In this document: positions 13,716 through 21,651 of the stretch, piece by piece
Layout of the letters: every line of letters begins with the position of its first letter
How positions within the stretch are numbered: position 1 is the first letter of the stretch
IMG/VR virus record: IMGVR_UViG_3300017992_000088
Location: 1 to 23,015 of that record
Reading direction: 5' to 3' (one strand)
DNA from: a virus
Length of the DNA stretch: 23,015 bases
Position numbers and translations under genes: made by a program
The notes under the pieces: generated by a model
Told to the model about the DNA's origin: nothing
Database searches by the model: none
What the model saw: the letters and a program-made list of their open reading frames with translations, nothing else

Positions 13716-14101
13716 TGGTCAAGATTCCGTGCCGACATTGGGTGTATCAGGAAGCGTTGCACGCGTGCGGCGCTGGCGTGTGCGCGCTGAAGCTGTTCGG
13801 CGGTCGCCCATCGTTCGGCGTGTGTCTAAAGGCATGCGATCGGCTGGACATCGACAGCGAAACGCGAGCCGAGTTGATCGAGCAGGTACGCGGGCAAGCG
13901 CTGCCGTTGGATGTCCCGTGGTTGGTTCAGCGGATGAGGACGTGCGGCGCGTGCGACAAGTCTGACTGCCCGGCCAAGCGACTCAGCCGGTGTCACCTTC
14001 AGCGCTGGCTTGCCAAGCCGGACGCGTGCTGTCCCGACGATCCGCCGCGATGGCGGCCGGTCAATCCGGCTTCGGGACCGGATCAATCGGACGCTGCCTG
14101 A
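13715..14101 (+). CDS. Small cysteine-rich, probably metal-binding protein
   Basis: 128 residues from an ATG that overlaps the preceding TGA. Cysteines occur as PCRHWVYQEALHACGAGVC, FGVCLKAC, RTCGACDKSDCP, RC and ACC, giving about a dozen in a short, basic/acidic mixed protein with no membrane segment. The pattern around RTCGACDKSDCP resembles a C-x2-C-x4-C zinc-type site. I do not recognise the family. It is the last gene of the rightward structural operon. Its final 41 bases overlap the 3' end of the leftward pseudopilin gene, with no terminator between them. Confidence 0.6.
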   Translation: MVKIPCRHWVYQEALHACGAGVCALKLFGGRPSFGVCLKACDRLDIDSETRAELIEQVRGQALPLDVPWLVQRMRTCGACDKSDCPAKRLSRCHLQRWLAKPDACCPDDPPRWRPVNPASGPDQSDAA

Positions 14102-15083
14102 CGCTGGCGATGCCCGTGTAGCGGTTGAAGTACACGAGGCGGCCTGTGTCGCGGATGATCCCGCGACGGAAGTAAAGGCTGCCGACATCGGTGGAGCCGA
14201 TAAGTTCCTCATAACCGACATCGGTCGCCCAATCCTCGGTCGCCCGCTCCGCAGCGTCGACGCGGTCGTAGATCGCCAGCGACGACGCGATCGTGACAAG
14301 CACTTCCTCGCCGTCGTAGAGCTGGACGAAGAGATCGGCGGCACTCGCCACCGGCAGATCGCGCGGGATGTATTCGATGCCTCGGAAGCTCTGACGCACG
14401 TCCTGAGGGCCTCGCGGGTTCCAGTCGACCCATGCGCCCATCGTGTCGCTGGCGGAGTTGCGGCTGAGCGTGGCCCCGTCGGGGCCGTACATGATGGCGA
14501 GGACGACGCCCCGACGCTCGCCCTGAATCGGCAGCGTGCCGGCCTCGGCGAGGTTGATCTGCGTCAACCACGTGAAGTCGGCGTCGTAGTTGCCGCCGAT
14601 ATCATGGTAGTTGGGGGTGGCTATCCCGATGCCTGCCGGAAGCTTGATGGCGCGTAATGTCGGGACCGGAACGAAGCGGTCGGCAGTCCGCCAGATCGAA
14701 TCGTAGCGCTCGGTTTCGGCGTGCTGGCAGATGACGGCCTCGATGTACTGCTCATCATCATCCAGGCGGGGCCTGAACGCCACGAGGGCGAGATCGTTGG
14801 ACTTCATCGCGTGTGCCCGGGCGTGGTCAAGCGTGGATGAGATCGTATTCACCGCGAGCGCCATCCGGCTGCTGTCGCTGATCGCGCGTACGCTTGTGAC
14901 AGTCAGCGTTGCGAGCACGGCGATGATCGCCATGACGACGAGCAGCTCAATCAGCGTGAAGCCGCGGCGCCGATTCCAGATCGCCGGGCGGCGTGCGCCG
15001 AACAGATGTACGTCGAACCGTGACCGGCCGAGCCATAGGCCGAACGCCAGCACGGCCAGGAAGAATGCGAGTGCGTAGATCAT
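14061..15083 (-). CDS. Type II secretion-like pseudopilin (GspH/prepilin family) with a long leader
   Basis: 340 residues. The start ATG (15081-15083) has a GAGAGGTGG site just upstream and overlaps the stop of the HTH gene. GFTLIELLVVMAIIAVLATL at 41-60 is a textbook prepilin cleavage site and N-terminal transmembrane helix, with the conserved Glu5 at residue 46; a prepilin peptidase would cut after Gly41. The leader is 41 residues and carries its own hydrophobic helix (about 2-19), whereas prepilin leaders are normally short and polar. The rest is a mixed alpha/beta domain ending in strands (GSLYFRRGIIRD, LVYFNRYTGIASV) like GspH minor pseudopilins. Pseudopilins build periplasmic pilus-like fibres. 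One in a phage accessory operon is unexpected; it could alter a host pilus or secretion machine, or be a captured host gene. Confidence 0.78.
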   Translation of the reverse strand: MIYALAFFLAVLAFGLWLGRSRFDVHLFGARRPAIWNRRRGFTLIELLVVMAIIAVLATLTVTSVRAISDSSRMALAVNTISSTLDHARAHAMKSNDLALVAFRPRLDDDEQYIEAVICQHAETERYDSIWRTADRFVPVPTLRAIKLPAGIGIATPNYHDIGGNYDADFTWLTQINLAEAGTLPIQGERRGVVLAIMYGPDGATLSRNSASDTMGAWVDWNPRGPQDVRQSFRGIEYIPRDLPVASAADLFVQLYDGEEVLVTIASSLAIYDRVDAAERATEDWATDVGYEELIGSTDVGSLYFRRGIIRDTGRLVYFNRYTGIASVRQRPIDPVPKPD

Positions 15084-15286
15084 CGTCCACCTCTCGTCCG
15101 AAGTTCGATGTCGAGGATGTCCAGAATCACGCCGAGCCGCAGCGTCGTCGTGTCCTGCCGGCCGGCGAGGAACTTGAGGATCGTCTGCCGGTTCGCTACG
15201 CCGCTCTGATGTACCTGCTCGGCGAGCCAGTAGTGCGAACGCTGGAGCTTGTCGAGTCGGTCCTGTATCGCTTCGCGGATGTTCAT
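15080..15286 (-). CDS. Small helix-turn-helix protein, Cro/C1-like
   Basis: 68 residues. The ATG (15284-15286) overlaps the stop of the pentapeptide-repeat gene and is preceded by AAAGGAGC. The sequence [20 protein letters not shown], then [20 protein letters not shown] is typical of lambda-repressor-like HTH domains: a first helix, a LAEQV helix, a turn, a recognition helix and a following helix that ends in the LDIEL segment. It is almost all domain, with no extra dimer or protease domain. It is coupled to the pseudopilin by a further ATGA overlap. Likely role: repressing or tuning its own operon or the neighbouring divergent promoters. Whether it is the lysogeny repressor or a Cro-type regulator cannot be told. 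Confidence 0.7.
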
Positions 15287-15912
15287 GTCTGCTGCTCCTT
15301 TGCGTCGCCAAGCACCTCGAACCACTGGCACCGGTACTTGGTTCCGGCCTTGTGGATGCACTCTGGTCTGGTTCGTACTCGGATCATCGGGACTTCCCCA
15401 GAGAAGCCGATCGCATCCTTCAGCGTGGGCCACAGATACAGGCCTGGATGGCATTCGGTATCGGCGATCGAGAACCAATCGGCCGAGTAAAAGCGGCCAT
15501 CGCGGTACTTGTCAATGTGGCCGGCCTGCCGAGTGCGGTAGCCGATAACGCATTCACCATCCCTGGTAAATTCATCGGCCTCGCCGTTTGGCGCTGCGTC
15601 TGGATCAAGGACAGTACCGTACAGGTCCGCGTCGCACAGGTTTGCGCCGTACAGGTCCGCGTCGCACAGGTCCGCGCCGCGCAGGTCCGCGCCGCGCAGG
15701 TCCGCGCCGCCCAGGTTCGCGCCGCCCAGGTTCGCGCCGCGCAGGTTCGCGCCGCGCAGGTTCGCGCCGTACAGGTTCGCGCCGTACAGGTTCGCGCCGT
15801 ACAGGTTCGCGCCGCACAGGTTCGCGCCGCGCAGGTCCGCGCGGCTACCACCAGTGCCCGCGAGCCACACCGCATGTTTGGCTAGAATGTCTGCCAACTC
15901 TGCTGCGTTCAT
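15283..15912 (-). CDS. Pentapeptide-repeat protein with a C-terminal phage domain
   Basis: 209 residues from an ATG with a strong AGAGGAGG site 9 bases upstream. After a short helix ([15 protein letters not shown]) come about 15-16 tandem pentapeptides ([15 protein letters not shown] and similar) spanning roughly residues 22-101; the DNA repeats with a 15-bp period at about 15612-15846. Such repeats form a right-handed quadrilateral beta helix, in other families DNA-mimic or scaffold proteins (for example Qnr/MfpA on gyrase). The C-terminal half ([45 protein letters not shown]) matches a domain of unknown role seen in phage proteins of this type. Its start codon is far from the promoter; translation is probably coupled with the small genes upstream. 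Target unknown. Confidence 0.82.
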
Positions 15913-15977
15913 GTCTGGGCCTCCTCTGGGTGTTTGTGAATCCCGCCCCAGCGCCTGTCGGCGGCGGGGCGAGGGGG

Positions 15978-16211
15978 TTAGTCGGTGGACTCGTGCGGTA
16001 CGGGGTGCGTGGCGGCCCAAAGCGCCCCGCGCCCCTTCTCGGTGATGTCGAGCCAGGTCGTTCGACGGTTTATGCGGATGTAGCCCGCGCCAAGTAATTG
16101 GAGGTATTCTTCCTCAGTGGCGCGTGACGTGCAGGCGTTGTCACGCACGCACCTGAGTTGTTGGGCCAGCCGTTCGGTCGAGCCTGTCCATTTGTCGTAT
16201 CGCTTGCTCAT
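15978..16211 (-). CDS. Small winged-helix-like protein
   Basis: 77 residues from an ATG with an AGGGGGTG-type site and a 4-base overlap with the upstream 21-residue gene. [19 protein letters not shown] followed by [14 protein letters not shown] looks like the helix-wing of a winged-helix domain, in which the second half recognises DNA, and the N-terminal [18 protein letters not shown] could be its first helix. Two cysteines (RCVRDNAC) lie between. No close family is recognised. It lies third in the leftward operon and is separated from the pentapeptide gene by 65 bases. A DNA-binding role is inferred. Confidence 0.6.
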
Positions 16212-17451: not shown

Positions 17452-17661
17452 ATGGCATTCCAGATCCGAGATCCGAAGCTCGAACGAGTCCTGGACGAGA
17501 TGGCCGCAGCCCAGCCGGCGCGGACGACGAAGCGCAGCCTCGTGATGGCGATCCTGCGGGTCGCGGCTGACGAGTACAGGCGTACGCGCGATCCGGTGGG
17601 CTGGATGGTCCCTCCGAACCGCAAGGCCGCACGCGGCGTCTCAGGGGCTCAGGAGCGATAG
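17452..17661 (+). CDS. Small basic protein, possible ribbon-helix-helix DNA binder
   Basis: 69 residues. The N-terminus AFQIRDPKLERVLDEM, followed by a KRSLVMAILRVAADEYRR helix, has the strand-helix-helix spacing of ribbon-helix-helix regulators or antitoxins, though the match is not strong. The tail is Arg/Gly/Pro-rich. No toxin-like partner is next to it. It is divergent from the leftward accessory operon across a 272-base control region, a usual place for a regulator. It has no Shine-Dalgarno site and probably uses a leaderless transcript. Confidence 0.5.
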   Translation: MAFQIRDPKLERVLDEMAAAQPARTTKRSLVMAILRVAADEYRRTRDPVGWMVPPNRKAARGVSGAQER

Positions 17662-17902: not shown

Positions 17903-17963
17903 TGCAACGGTGCGCTTCGTGGGAAGTGCGCTCCGTGCATCATCTACGGTGCGCTCTGCGGAG
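17903..17963 (+). repeat. Imperfect hairpin with an alternative pairing partner
   Basis: TGCA, CGG, GCGC and TTC (17903-17918) can pair with GAA, GCGC, CCG and TGCA (17923-17939) around a four-base loop, about 14 bp with small bulges. CTCCG at 17931-17935 can instead pair with CGGAG at 17959-17963. The two folds exclude each other, so a switch is conceivable, but nothing shows it is used. Confidence 0.35.
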
Positions 17964-17990
17964 CCCACGGCCGGGGTCTTTGGGGCTTTT

Positions 17991-18132
17991 GCACCGGCGG
18001 CGTGTGGGAAACGCGGGAACGGAGAGCCCCACCAAAGGCGACCCAATTACCTTAATGCCATCCGGAGGCGTCAGAGAAACTGGAAGGCTATGGACGACAC
18101 TCTGGCAGCCGGTTCGAATCCGGCCCGGTGCA
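17991..18132 (+). tRNA. Oversized tRNA-like element 1 (142 bases; anticodon not identifiable)
   Basis: GCACCGG at 17991-17997 pairs perfectly with CCGGTGC at 18125-18131, followed by a possible discriminator A. Immediately inside is a perfect 5-bp T arm, GCCGG-TTCGAAT-CCGGC (18108-18124), with canonical T-loop bases, and at the 5' side a perfect 4-bp D-like arm GCGT/ACGC (18000-18014) with GG in its loop. But 93 bases (18015-18107) stand where an anticodon arm and variable loop should take about 22-40, position 8 is C rather than U, and no anticodon arm with U33 is evident. An insertion, an intron or a tRNA-mimic RNA are all possible. It shares CGGCGGCGTG at the acceptor/D-arm junction and a 20-base T-arm block (19 of 20 identical) with element 2. 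Confidence 0.4.
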
Positions 18133-18139
18133 TTCATGG

Positions 18140-18244
18140 ACGGCGGCGGCGTGGCGCGGTGAACAGTGGTCATGGCGGTTCGATTCCGCAAGCCGCGAGG
18201 TATCACGCAGAGATCTCACGCCGGTTCGACTCCGGCCCGCCGTC
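18140..18244 (+). tRNA. Oversized tRNA-like element 2 (105 bases; identity uncertain)
   Basis: ACGGCGG at 18140-18146 pairs perfectly with CCGCCGT at 18237-18243, and the T arm GCCGG-TTCGACT-CCGGC (18220-18236) is perfect. Between them is a second hairpin with a T-loop-like seven-base loop, GCGG-TTCGATT-CCGC (18175-18189), and then a GAGGT/ATCTC stem (18197-18217). If the middle hairpin is read as an anticodon arm, its loop gives U33 and anticodon CGA (Ser), and the next stem would be the long variable arm of a class II tRNA; the CGCGGTGAAC segment resembles a serine-tRNA D loop. Against this, the D region is about 27 bases and position 37 is U. Six Ts follow at 18245-18250, so the T arm plus Ts may also terminate transcription. 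Confidence 0.42.
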
Positions 18245-18272
18245 TTTTTTCAGACATCTACTGGAGATCACC

Positions 18273-18494
18273 ATGACACCGGAAACGAACGCCGAACTCG
18301 CTCAGATCCATTTCATCGTCGAGAAGGAACGCGACTGGCAGGCCCCGCTGGCGGAAGCGGAGAAGGCCCTGAAGCGCGGCGCTCTTGACGAAGGCCATGC
18401 GTTGTTGCGTGCACATGCGAAGACGATTGACTCGATGTTGACTCGCCTCGGCGATCTGATCGCGACGGAGCAGACGGCGACAACGGCGGCATGA
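18273..18494 (+). CDS. Small helical phage protein, unknown function
   Basis: 73 residues from an ATG with GGAG (18262-18265) upstream. The chain is nearly all helix, with AQIHFIVEKERDWQAPLAEA, a KALKRGALDEGHALLRAHAK segment and a short Thr/Ala-rich end. No family or catalytic motif is recognised. It lies just after the tRNA-like elements and their T-tract and just before a strong hairpin terminator, so it may be a single-gene transcript. Confidence 0.55.
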   Translation: MTPETNAELAQIHFIVEKERDWQAPLAEAEKALKRGALDEGHALLRAHAKTIDSMLTRLGDLIATEQTATTAA

Positions 18495-20279: not shown

Positions 20280-20504
20280 ATGGATGACGGTGGACCGGCA
20301 TTCCCACTCGTCTTCTTCGATGAGGAGGCGATGGTATCGACCCGCGCAGATGGCATGTCTCTCCGCGACTGGTTCGCGGGGCAGGCGCTGGTCGCCGGCC
20401 AGAGTCGCTGCGAAAACTGGTGGCCTCAACCCGAGCAAACTGCGGCGCACGCATACAGAGTCGCCGACGCCCTGCTCGCAGAACGGGAGATGCACGATGC
20501 CTGA
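20280..20504 (+). CDS. Conserved phage protein (GGPAFP...GMSLRDWFAGQAL), unknown function
   Basis: 74 residues from an ATG with a very good AGGAGG site (20268-20273). It belongs to a family widespread in tailed phages: an N-terminal GGPAFP, a GMSLRDWFAGQALVA block at the middle, and a C-terminal AAHAYRVADALLAEREM helix. Members are 60-100 residues and lack known function, often encoded near recombination or DNA-metabolism genes, as here. The stop overlaps the next gene by eight bases. Confidence 0.8.
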   Translation: MDDGGPAFPLVFFDEEAMVSTRADGMSLRDWFAGQALVAGQSRCENWWPQPEQTAAHAYRVADALLAEREMHDA

Positions 20505-21651
20505 TCGCATTTTCACCGTACGCTGCTCAGCCCTCGATCTGCTCTGGCAATGCGCCGAGTCGATCGACCGGCCCGACGGCGCGCTTGTCGTCAGCCCGGC
20601 CAACGAGATGGCGGACCTCGGGACGGCGCAACACCGCGCGGCCGAATCGCTCGGCGTTGATTCGGAGCCCGACTTGGCAGACATCGCGTCCCGATTCGGC
20701 GTCGATCTCGACGAGCTGTCGATGCTGTGGGCGATGACGCTCCGGCAGTGGAACGGCGGCGAGCAGCATCCAGGCCTGAAGACGTGGTTCGCCGATGGCG
20801 ATACCGAGTGCCAGGGCGAGCACGTCGTCGAGTGGCCGCATCACAGCTACACGCACTTCCGGCTCCGCGGCAAGCGTGACCGGCGCGCCATCCGTGGCAA
20901 TCGCGTGTACGGGCTCGATTGGAAAACCGGATATGTCGAGGCCGACCACGAGCACCAAATGCGCGGCTACGGCTTCCTCGACATGCTGGCGTATCCAGAG
21001 GCCGAGCAGATCTGGAGCGGGATCGCGTACGTCCGGCTCGGCTTCATCGACGCGAAGATCTACACGCGGAGGCAGCTCGAAGACTGGTTCGCCGATCTGC
21101 TCACGCACCTGGCGAACCAGCTCGGCACCTACGCGCCCGGCCCGCACTGCCGGTTCTGCGATCGGCAGCACGATTGCGCCGGCCGCGATCGGTGGATGCA
21201 GTCGGCGATCGTCGCGTTCGGCTCGAATCTGCGTGTACCGATCGAGGGGCCGCCGGAGATGATCGGGCCACAGCTTGCCGAACTGCTGAGGACGGCGAAG
21301 GCGGTCGGCGGCGCCTGCGATCGTGTCCGCGACGTTGCCCGCGAGTACGCCGACGCGCACGACGGCTTTTTCCCGACCGGCGACGGGCGAGCGTTTGAGC
21401 TACGGACGACGAAGCGGCGGTCGATCGATCCCGCCGCGGGCTGGCCGGTGCTCAGTCAGCATCTCACGGATGGCGAGCTGGCCCCGTGCGTCAAGATCAG
21501 CAAGGGGGCCGTCGAGAAAGCGATCGGCGCGAAGACTGAACGCGGCGGCAAGGGCAAGGCGATCGAGGCACTGATGGACGAACTCGACGCGGCGGGTGCG
21601 CTGCGCGAACAACCGATGACACAACTGCGGGAGGTCAAGGCGGATGTCTAG
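20497..21651 (+). CDS. PD-(D/E)XK nuclease with iron-sulfur cysteines (Cas4/RecB/DUF2800-like)
   Basis: 384 residues from ATG 20497, which overlaps the preceding stop. The nuclease core is visible: GTAQH at 42-46 (the conserved His), KRD with Asp128 after a beta strand, DWK at 141-143 (the D-x-K catalytic pair) and HQMRGY at 153-158 (the Q-x3-Y motif). Four cysteines, C19 near the N-terminus and C218-x2-C221-x5-C227, are spaced as in Cas4- and AddB-type 4Fe-4S nucleases. The C-terminal 100 residues, with KRRSIDPAAGW and MDELDAAG, resemble the DUF2800 phage nucleases. It probably resects DNA ends for the annealing protein encoded two genes downstream. Its gene overlaps the next by eight bases. 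Confidence 0.83.
   Translation: MPDRIFTVRCSALDLLWQCAESIDRPDGALVVSPANEMADLGTAQHRAAESLGVDSEPDLADIASRFGVDLDELSMLWAMTLRQWNGGEQHPGLKTWFADGDTECQGEHVVEWPHHSYTHFRLRGKRDRRAIRGNRVYGLDWKTGYVEADHEHQMRGYGFLDMLAYPEAEQIWSGIAYVRLGFIDAKIYTRRQLEDWFADLLTHLANQLGTYAPGPHCRFCDRQHDCAGRDRWMQSAIVAFGSNLRVPIEGPPEMIGPQLAELLRTAKAVGGACDRVRDVAREYADAHDGFFPTGDGRAFELRTTKRRSIDPAAGWPVLSQHLTDGELAPCVKISKGAVEKAIGAKTERGGKGKAIEALMDELDAAGALREQPMTQLREVKADV

Follow-up and report, generated by a model that had tools for sequence, protein, structure and literature searches.

Background

In tRNA, the tertiary pair G19-C56 is near-universal. tmRNA combines a tRNA-like domain that lacks an anticodon arm with pseudoknots, and theta (HDV-like) ribozymes and GOLLD-type RNAs are structured RNAs located near phage tRNA genes. 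To our knowledge, the known viral tRNA-like structures are found at the 3' ends of RNA-virus genomes. In size, pairing and setting, the elements reported here come closest to two RNAs of phage T4, rnaC (species 1, 139 nt) and rnaD (species 2, 119 nt). These small stable phage RNAs are neighbours within a tRNA cluster and have no annotated function. In T4 rnaC (NC_000866 70908-71046, minus strand, locus L239), a perfect T-arm, CCGGG-TTCGAAT-CCCGG, lies close to the 3' end and the terminal stem is paired in part; in rnaD a T-arm was not seen. Non-decoding RNAs that mimic tRNA have a precedent in Y RNAs and viral tRNA-like structures (PMC5723415), and the tRNA elbow is recognised by RNase P and RNase Z (PMC4810234).

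The two adjacent predicted RNA elements A and B described here recall the T4 pair. No sequence relation of rnaC or rnaD to the family of A and B was found, and neither T4 RNA has its D-arm and acceptor architecture. In rnaC, a D-arm matching that of the family and CG at positions 8-9 are lacking, and acceptor pairing is imperfect; a distant analogy in function is possible. With bacterial tRNA (RF00005), the family shares a 7-bp acceptor, a D-arm, a 5-bp T-arm with a TTCRANT loop and the 19-56 elbow pair. It differs in having no general anticodon arm, C8-G9 instead of U8-A9, a length of 68-326 nt, a near-invariant D-arm sequence, alternative elbow pairs and scores under the Rfam threshold. Like tmRNA, it has a tRNA-like domain lacking an anticodon arm, with additional structured RNA separating its halves, but it is much shorter, has a D-stem and lacks the tmRNA signature: ARAGORN -m and Rfam were negative, and a tag frame, sought only via motif counts, was not found. 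YrlA Y RNAs and viral tRNA-like structures are alike in their tRNA mimicry, but their arrangement is different and no Ro60 gene was found in 47 records examined. No element matched theta (HDV-like) ribozyme or GOLLD-type families in Rfam.

Results

Two oversized tRNA-shaped elements in a virus genome

The window, i.e. the whole 23,015-nt stretch that was analysed, is a 23-kb virus record in which genes for head, tape-measure and exonuclease proteins were recognised. No close relative of it was found in any of the collections searched, either by DNA or by neighbouring proteins. A phage-encoded type IV pilin-like protein with an N_methyl prepilin motif (14061-15311, minus strand) and an adjoining pentapeptide-repeat protein (15283-16020) were also observed. 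A and B are separated by 7 nt and lie between an ORF ending at 17661 and a gene starting at 18273. The features are as follows:

17452..17661, + strand: small ORF upstream of A and B, 69 aa, no family
17991..18132, + strand: element A, tRNA-shaped RNA of 142 nt with a type 2 D-arm (D-arm type shared by 44 relatives)
17991..17997, + strand: acceptor 5' strand of A, GCACCGG, read directly; partner 18125-18131
17998..18014, + strand: CG (positions 8-9) and D-arm of A, GCGT-GTGGGAA-ACGC (18000-18014)
18015..18107, + strand: cargo domain of A, 93 nt, where the anticodon arm would be
18108..18124, + strand: T-arm of A, GCCGG-TTCGAAT-CCGGC
18125..18132, + strand: acceptor 3' strand of A, CCGGTGC (18125-18131), and discriminator A (18132); CCA not encoded
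18140..18244, + strand: element B, tRNA-shaped RNA of 105 nt, diverged type 1
18140..18146, + strand: acceptor 5' strand of B, ACGGCGG; partner 18237-18243
18147..18162, + strand: CG, putative D-stem 5' strand GCGTG (18149-18153) and D-loop GCGCGGTGA of B, assigned by comparison with relatives, which have GACGGTGA
18163..18203, + strand: insert of B, from the D-loop to the displaced D-stem 3' strand
18204..18208, + strand: proposed D-stem 3' strand of B, CACGC, suggested by the sequence
18220..18236, + strand: T-arm of B, GCCGG-TTCGACT-CCGGC
18237..18244, + strand: acceptor 3' strand of B, CCGCCGT, followed by C
18273..18494, + strand: small gene downstream of A and B, 73 aa, no family; its ATG lies 29 nt past B
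20494..21651, + strand: PD-(D/E)XK exonuclease (PHROG 69, PF12705), in a rightward early region

Direct reading bore out the perfect 7-bp acceptors and perfect 5-bp T-arms with canonical loops noticed in a preliminary description, and the lengths of 142 and 105 nt and the string CGGCGGCGTG common to both elements were also correct. The D-arm of A and the GCGTG of B with its displaced CACGC had been overlooked. Perfect acceptors combined with a perfect GGTTC T-arm at a distance of 60-200 nt occur twice in the window and in none of 150 dinucleotide shuffles.

The acceptor of B comprises 8 bp when 18139/18244 are counted in, and TTTTTT follows directly 3' of the element (18245-18250). Its D-arm is broken under a simple reading and is proposed to be closed only via the displaced strand; an insert with a T-arm of its own places CACGC 41 nt 3' of the D-loop. 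This inner T-arm, GCGG-TTCGATT-CCGC (18175-18189), is bracketed by CGCGG (18155-18159) and CCGCG (18193-18197). A search pattern built on the unusual D-loop of B returned chance matches in coding sequence only. Just 5' of A, a compact palindromic region (17918-17970) with CGTGGG..CCCACG around TGCGCTCCGT..ACGGTGCGC was observed, which is possibly a further structured RNA or an operator.

At standard settings, ARAGORN called neither a tRNA nor a tmRNA in A or B, and Rfam gave no match at the gathering threshold. The best sub-threshold match was tRNA-Sec (RF01852), with 23.6 of 47 bits for B and none for A, so that neither element reaches the gathering score of that family. The tRNA search with intron settings that had been proposed as a check did return models, including an Arg model for B, although all were of low quality.

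A family of related elements in phages

When the boundary between T-arm and acceptor was searched as an exact pattern, 10 viral contigs were obtained, several with matching architecture. The two D-arm sequences matched 43 and 70 viral stretches, and the last, looser scan gave 114. The third scan demanded GGTTCRANTCC within 44-74 nt; its frequencies are biased because other T-loops enter only with an inner T-arm. Elements were then defined by a detector based on acceptor pairing, CG plus D-arm, and T-arm. In total, 133 distinct elements at 129 loci were detected, mostly in metagenome fragments, with lengths of 68-326 nt (median 121) and 88 different acceptor sequences. In all members the acceptor is followed by CG at positions 8-9 and by a D-arm whose sequence is conserved; then come the hypervariable middle and the T-arm, and CCA is not encoded. 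Of the 133 elements, 123 have an A directly before the T-arm. This architecture, with a GC[AG]TG or GCGT D-arm, is complete in A and present in B with the D-stem partner displaced. The 7-bp acceptor and the 5-bp T-arm with a TTCRANT loop known from tRNA are present, and the D-arm and elbow are found in A and its relatives but in B only via the displaced strand. Two elements per phage recur (the window, L017, L025/L042, L034, L182, L187 and L231/L232).

Several initial matches were rejected. SilentRX, MT837589 and VCLv21, the first cultured-phage matches to the type 1 and 2 D-arms, failed the detector, and matches of the L246/L250/L292 type from the last scan were ordinary tRNA genes that lay 3' of an unrelated match. 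In a group of loci (L034, L179-L182, L195, L209, L216), long acceptors of up to 10 counted bp and an expanded T-loop, TAGCGGGTAA..GCCAAT, were observed.

No published description of the family was found in the literature searched, which excludes most subscription journals and preprints, and with this caveat the family is considered undescribed.

Covariation of stems and elbow

Since the detector itself relies on pairing, a separate, non-circular test was applied, in which the first downstream T-arm with GG..CC was taken for each D-arm match. All seven acceptor pairs formed in 65 of 76 viral cases, compared with 2.3 (maximum 8) after shuffling of the partners; in bacterial genomes, just 2 of 118 D-arm matches had a T-arm at all. 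Double-change cells numbered 150 in 41 aligned type 2 cores (37 shuffled) and 110 in 33 aligned type 1 cores (26 shuffled). The CG and D-arm columns of A are invariant across 41 relatives, except for loop position 19. The D-stem is nearly invariant throughout and, where altered, is compensated, as in GCATG/CATGC and in GCGCT/AGCGC of Synechococcus phage Ssp-JY40. The loss of paired stems in relatives, which would have spoken against the elements, was thus not observed; the stems are conserved.

Of the 41 type 2 cores, 22 have G-C and 11 have U-A at the tertiary pair 19-56, which played no part in detection. Across all members, the mutual information between D-loop class and T-loop class is 0.92 bits, compared with 0.10 (maximum 0.23) in 2000 shuffles. 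GG D-loops go with TTCRANN T-loops (87 members), GTGYGAA D-loops with TTARANN (11) or a long loop ending in GCCAAT (8), GNNGGA D-loops with NNTCAANC (7) and AAGC-bearing D-loops with NNTAGCGN (5). This co-variation, including the change from G19-C56 to U19-A56, indicates a tRNA-like elbow under selection, and it is the signature of a tRNA elbow that was re-engineered several times. A conserved RNA family is nearly certain, and that its elements adopt a tRNA-like fold can be stated with high confidence. The common origin of A and B and the tRNA-mimic option, both put forward in the preliminary description, gain support from the 133 relatives, the covarying stems and the covarying D-loop/T-loop elbow.

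The middle domain

The middle varies from 20 nt to more than 200 nt across the family. An anticodon arm (5 bp, 7-nt loop, U33) was not found as a general feature: 5/7 hairpins with U33 are rare in the middles and inconsistent in position, which speaks against an arm that removal of an insert would restore. In the shortest members (68-72 nt), 20-24 nt separate the D-arm from the T-arm, which is insufficient for an anticodon arm plus variable loop. Given the lack of a general anticodon arm and of this space, the earlier option of tRNAs with introns is not supported. As the absence of an anticodon arm would exclude decoding, the members are very likely non-decoding.

The cargo folds better than its shuffled versions, with a mean z of -0.61 +/- 0.12 for nested structures and -0.73 +/- 0.14 when pseudoknots (crossing helices) are allowed, the pseudoknot excess being modest. 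A favoured helix ends 0-4 nt ahead of the T-arm (z -0.58 +/- 0.11). In A, a helix is predicted at 18070-18076/18100-18106, one base (A) short of the T-arm, so that its 3' strand would occupy the position enriched family-wide. One two-sided compensatory pair change was found in the homologous cargo of L184, L190 and L198.

A second tRNA T-arm lies inside 7 of 77 non-redundant middles, compared with 0.14 expected from shuffles (maximum 2). Apart from these inner T-arms, no motif was enriched in or common to the cargos. With regard to a phage regulatory RNA, the further option of the preliminary description and a possible role, no excess of complementarity, sense or antisense, to the phage's own surrounding DNA was found. 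Some middles contain a tRNA: an RNA nested between the outer D-arm and T-arm of L217 (G039:14657-14725, minus strand) scores 42.2 bits as an Rfam tRNA, the middle of L305 holds a tRNA-Leu-like gene and that of L277 a weaker tRNA. These three inner tRNAs pass tRNA thresholds, whereas the outer elements score below those of RF00005 and ARAGORN.

Exchange of the cargo

Two loci, L175 and L234, have flanks that are 79-89% identical over 3.6 kb and an identical D-arm and T-loop, while their middles (57 and 39 nt) are unrelated. In cultured P. aeruginosa phages (L357-L362), the locus lies 3' of the csrA-like bci gene and 5' of a conserved terminator, and one long acceptor stem encloses at least four alternative interiors: that of D14H, that shared by D14P, PACL, AUS531phi and phi297, that of YMC_P54 and that of BR153a. 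In YMC_P54, an A-T pair of the acceptor is changed to G-C on both strands (AGTGATC/GATCACT to AGTGGTC/GACCACT), and in BR153a inner acceptor pairs are altered jointly. Alternative interiors under compensated acceptors indicate that the interior is swapped as a unit while the closure is kept. Wholesale domain replacement between near-identical phages is the usual mark of an arms race, and the rapid turnover of the middle suggests an involvement in virus-host conflict.

Occurrence and genomic neighbourhood

The type 1 D-arm was found in 43 viral stretches, which were mostly genuine, compared with 2 genuine cases among at least 119 bacterial-genome stretches; the other 117 of 119 were chance matches. 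The genuine bacterial-genome elements lie in one Armatimonadetes MAG, beside ParB-like and DUF5131 genes, and in one Chthoniobacteraceae MAG. The former neighbourhood (L241) suggests an integrated element; in this MAG (about 9.6-18.6 kb), the member is also beside an ORF that matches just part of PrkA. With the AAGC-class D-arm pattern, no element was found in E. coli genomes or in 398 Pseudomonadaceae genomes. One of 397 genomes from the order of a Bradyrhizobium was positive, and plasmids gave no true match.

Cultured carriers include the Pseudomonas phages Persinger, PotUPM1, Orimi01/Orisa01-03 and D14H, with phages of P. aeruginosa and P. syringae among them, as well as Ochrobactrum phage POI1126, where the element lies beside a tRNA-Gln, and Synechococcus phages. 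Most of their elements are unannotated, and in Orimi01 and its relatives a part is labelled as a hypothetical protein. In Persinger (NC_054149), where the ends of the element map near 23.3 kb, one copy adjoins an integrase. Ordinary tRNAs are present in 17 of 47 records, with several elements inside a tRNA cluster. An RNA ligase scored above the cut-off in only 2 of the 47. A Ro60/TROVE gene was found in none of these records, which are fragments and whose hosts may encode one; a Deinobacterium control was positive. No flanking gene family is conserved beyond 7 loci, and this lack of a widely shared flanking protein family argues for a trans-acting RNA.

Discussion

On balance, A and B are tentatively read as phage non-coding RNAs in which a tRNA scaffold holds an exchangeable cargo, and which act in trans after excision. 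The components of this reading that the sequence comparisons show are the scaffold, its covariation, the co-varying elbows, the missing general anticodon arm and the cargo replacement. Acceptor, C8-G9, D-arm, T-arm and the D-loop/T-loop elbow make up a tRNA-shaped scaffold, and where an anticodon arm would be expected there is a cargo, which consists of hairpins, putative pseudoknots or a tRNA, whole or in part, nested inside the element. RNase P and RNase Z act on the elbow and acceptor of tRNA, so that by analogy with tRNA biology it is economical to assume that these two host enzymes would release the RNA as a stable molecule from the phage transcript. A trans-acting excised RNA is probable. 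The least certain steps are those that follow: its tRNA shape may engage host tRNA-handling factors, and the fast-changing cargo might serve as the specificity or decoy part against host defence or competing phages. Such a decoy or specificity role is a tentative suggestion of rather low probability; the RNA might instead confer immunity or inhibit a translation factor. A bolder version, speculative and unlikely as a whole, sees the family as a chassis whose elbow exists in at least four interchangeable chemistries and whose cargo is swapped as a specificity module. Host tRNA processing would make and protect the RNA, which would serve as an anti-defence decoy or in superinfection immunity.

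The main rival is that the elements act in cis only: the tRNA shape, with an inert middle, would be a processing site at which RNase P/Z cut polycistronic mRNA and trim the 5' end of the next gene. Many members lie in tight operons immediately 5' of a start codon, which would suit a cis processing or leader element too; elements are often found between co-directional genes, with the downstream start codon at a median of less than 100 nt, 29 nt past B in the window and about 25 nt in L175/L234. However, the flanking genes are unconserved, the middle is structured above chance with a compensatory change, and the elements of Persinger and D14H are followed at once by a terminator, leaving no gene to punctuate. 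The cis role is therefore considered fairly improbable. Less probable again is a cassette site at the DNA level, where the scaffold would be a recombination hot spot for the insertion of tRNAs and other fragments and folding of the RNA would be incidental. The tRNAs and tRNA-like pieces nested in some middles, the cargo swapping and the Persinger copy beside an integrase are in line with it, but U19-A56 and the other elbow co-changes make sense only in a folded RNA, and the cargo of one lineage shows a compensatory change.

The remaining explanations assign the tRNA shape to known classes. A miniature tmRNA-like RNA or SmpB/ribosome-binding mimic that disturbs ribosome rescue would account for the tRNA-like domain, the possible pseudoknots and the absent anticodon arm; it is quite improbable given a size far below that of tmRNA, the intact D-stem and the lack of tmRNA calls by ARAGORN and Rfam. 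Functional tRNAs with introns or insertions, decoding once the insert is removed, are very improbable despite the tRNA ends and elbow, the members in tRNA clusters and the ARAGORN Arg model for B, since members of 68-72 nt have no space for an anticodon arm, 5/7 U33 hairpins are scarce and variably placed, Rfam shows neither a splice nor a self-splicing element, and C8/G9 stand where U8/A9 are expected. A marginally lower probability is given to a relative of the bacterial Y RNAs that partner Ro60: Y RNAs of the YrlA kind do carry a tRNA-like module, but TROVE/Ro60 is missing from the 47 records, Rfam gave no match and the family RNA closes its acceptor stem with its own ends. Decayed tRNA pseudogenes or chance tRNA-like palindromes, to which low tRNA scores and odd lengths could point, are refuted by covariation, with perfect covarying stems and a covarying tertiary pair in more than 100 diverse phages and no occurrence in 150 shuffles.

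With the reading as non-coding RNAs on a tRNA scaffold, the tRNA shape is uncoupled from decoding in a family of more than 100 phages that was overlooked by tRNA finders and Rfam. The family displays natural elbows with pairs other than G19-C56, makes the old puzzle of the T4 stable RNAs C and D concrete and supplies a ready test system. In addition, L213 contains, directly before a family member, a second tRNA-like element that is oversized, at about 100 nt (92-191). It has the canonical UA at positions 8-9, a tRNA-like D-arm and an Rfam tRNA score of 33.1 bits, which suggests that oversized tRNA-like elements form a wider class.
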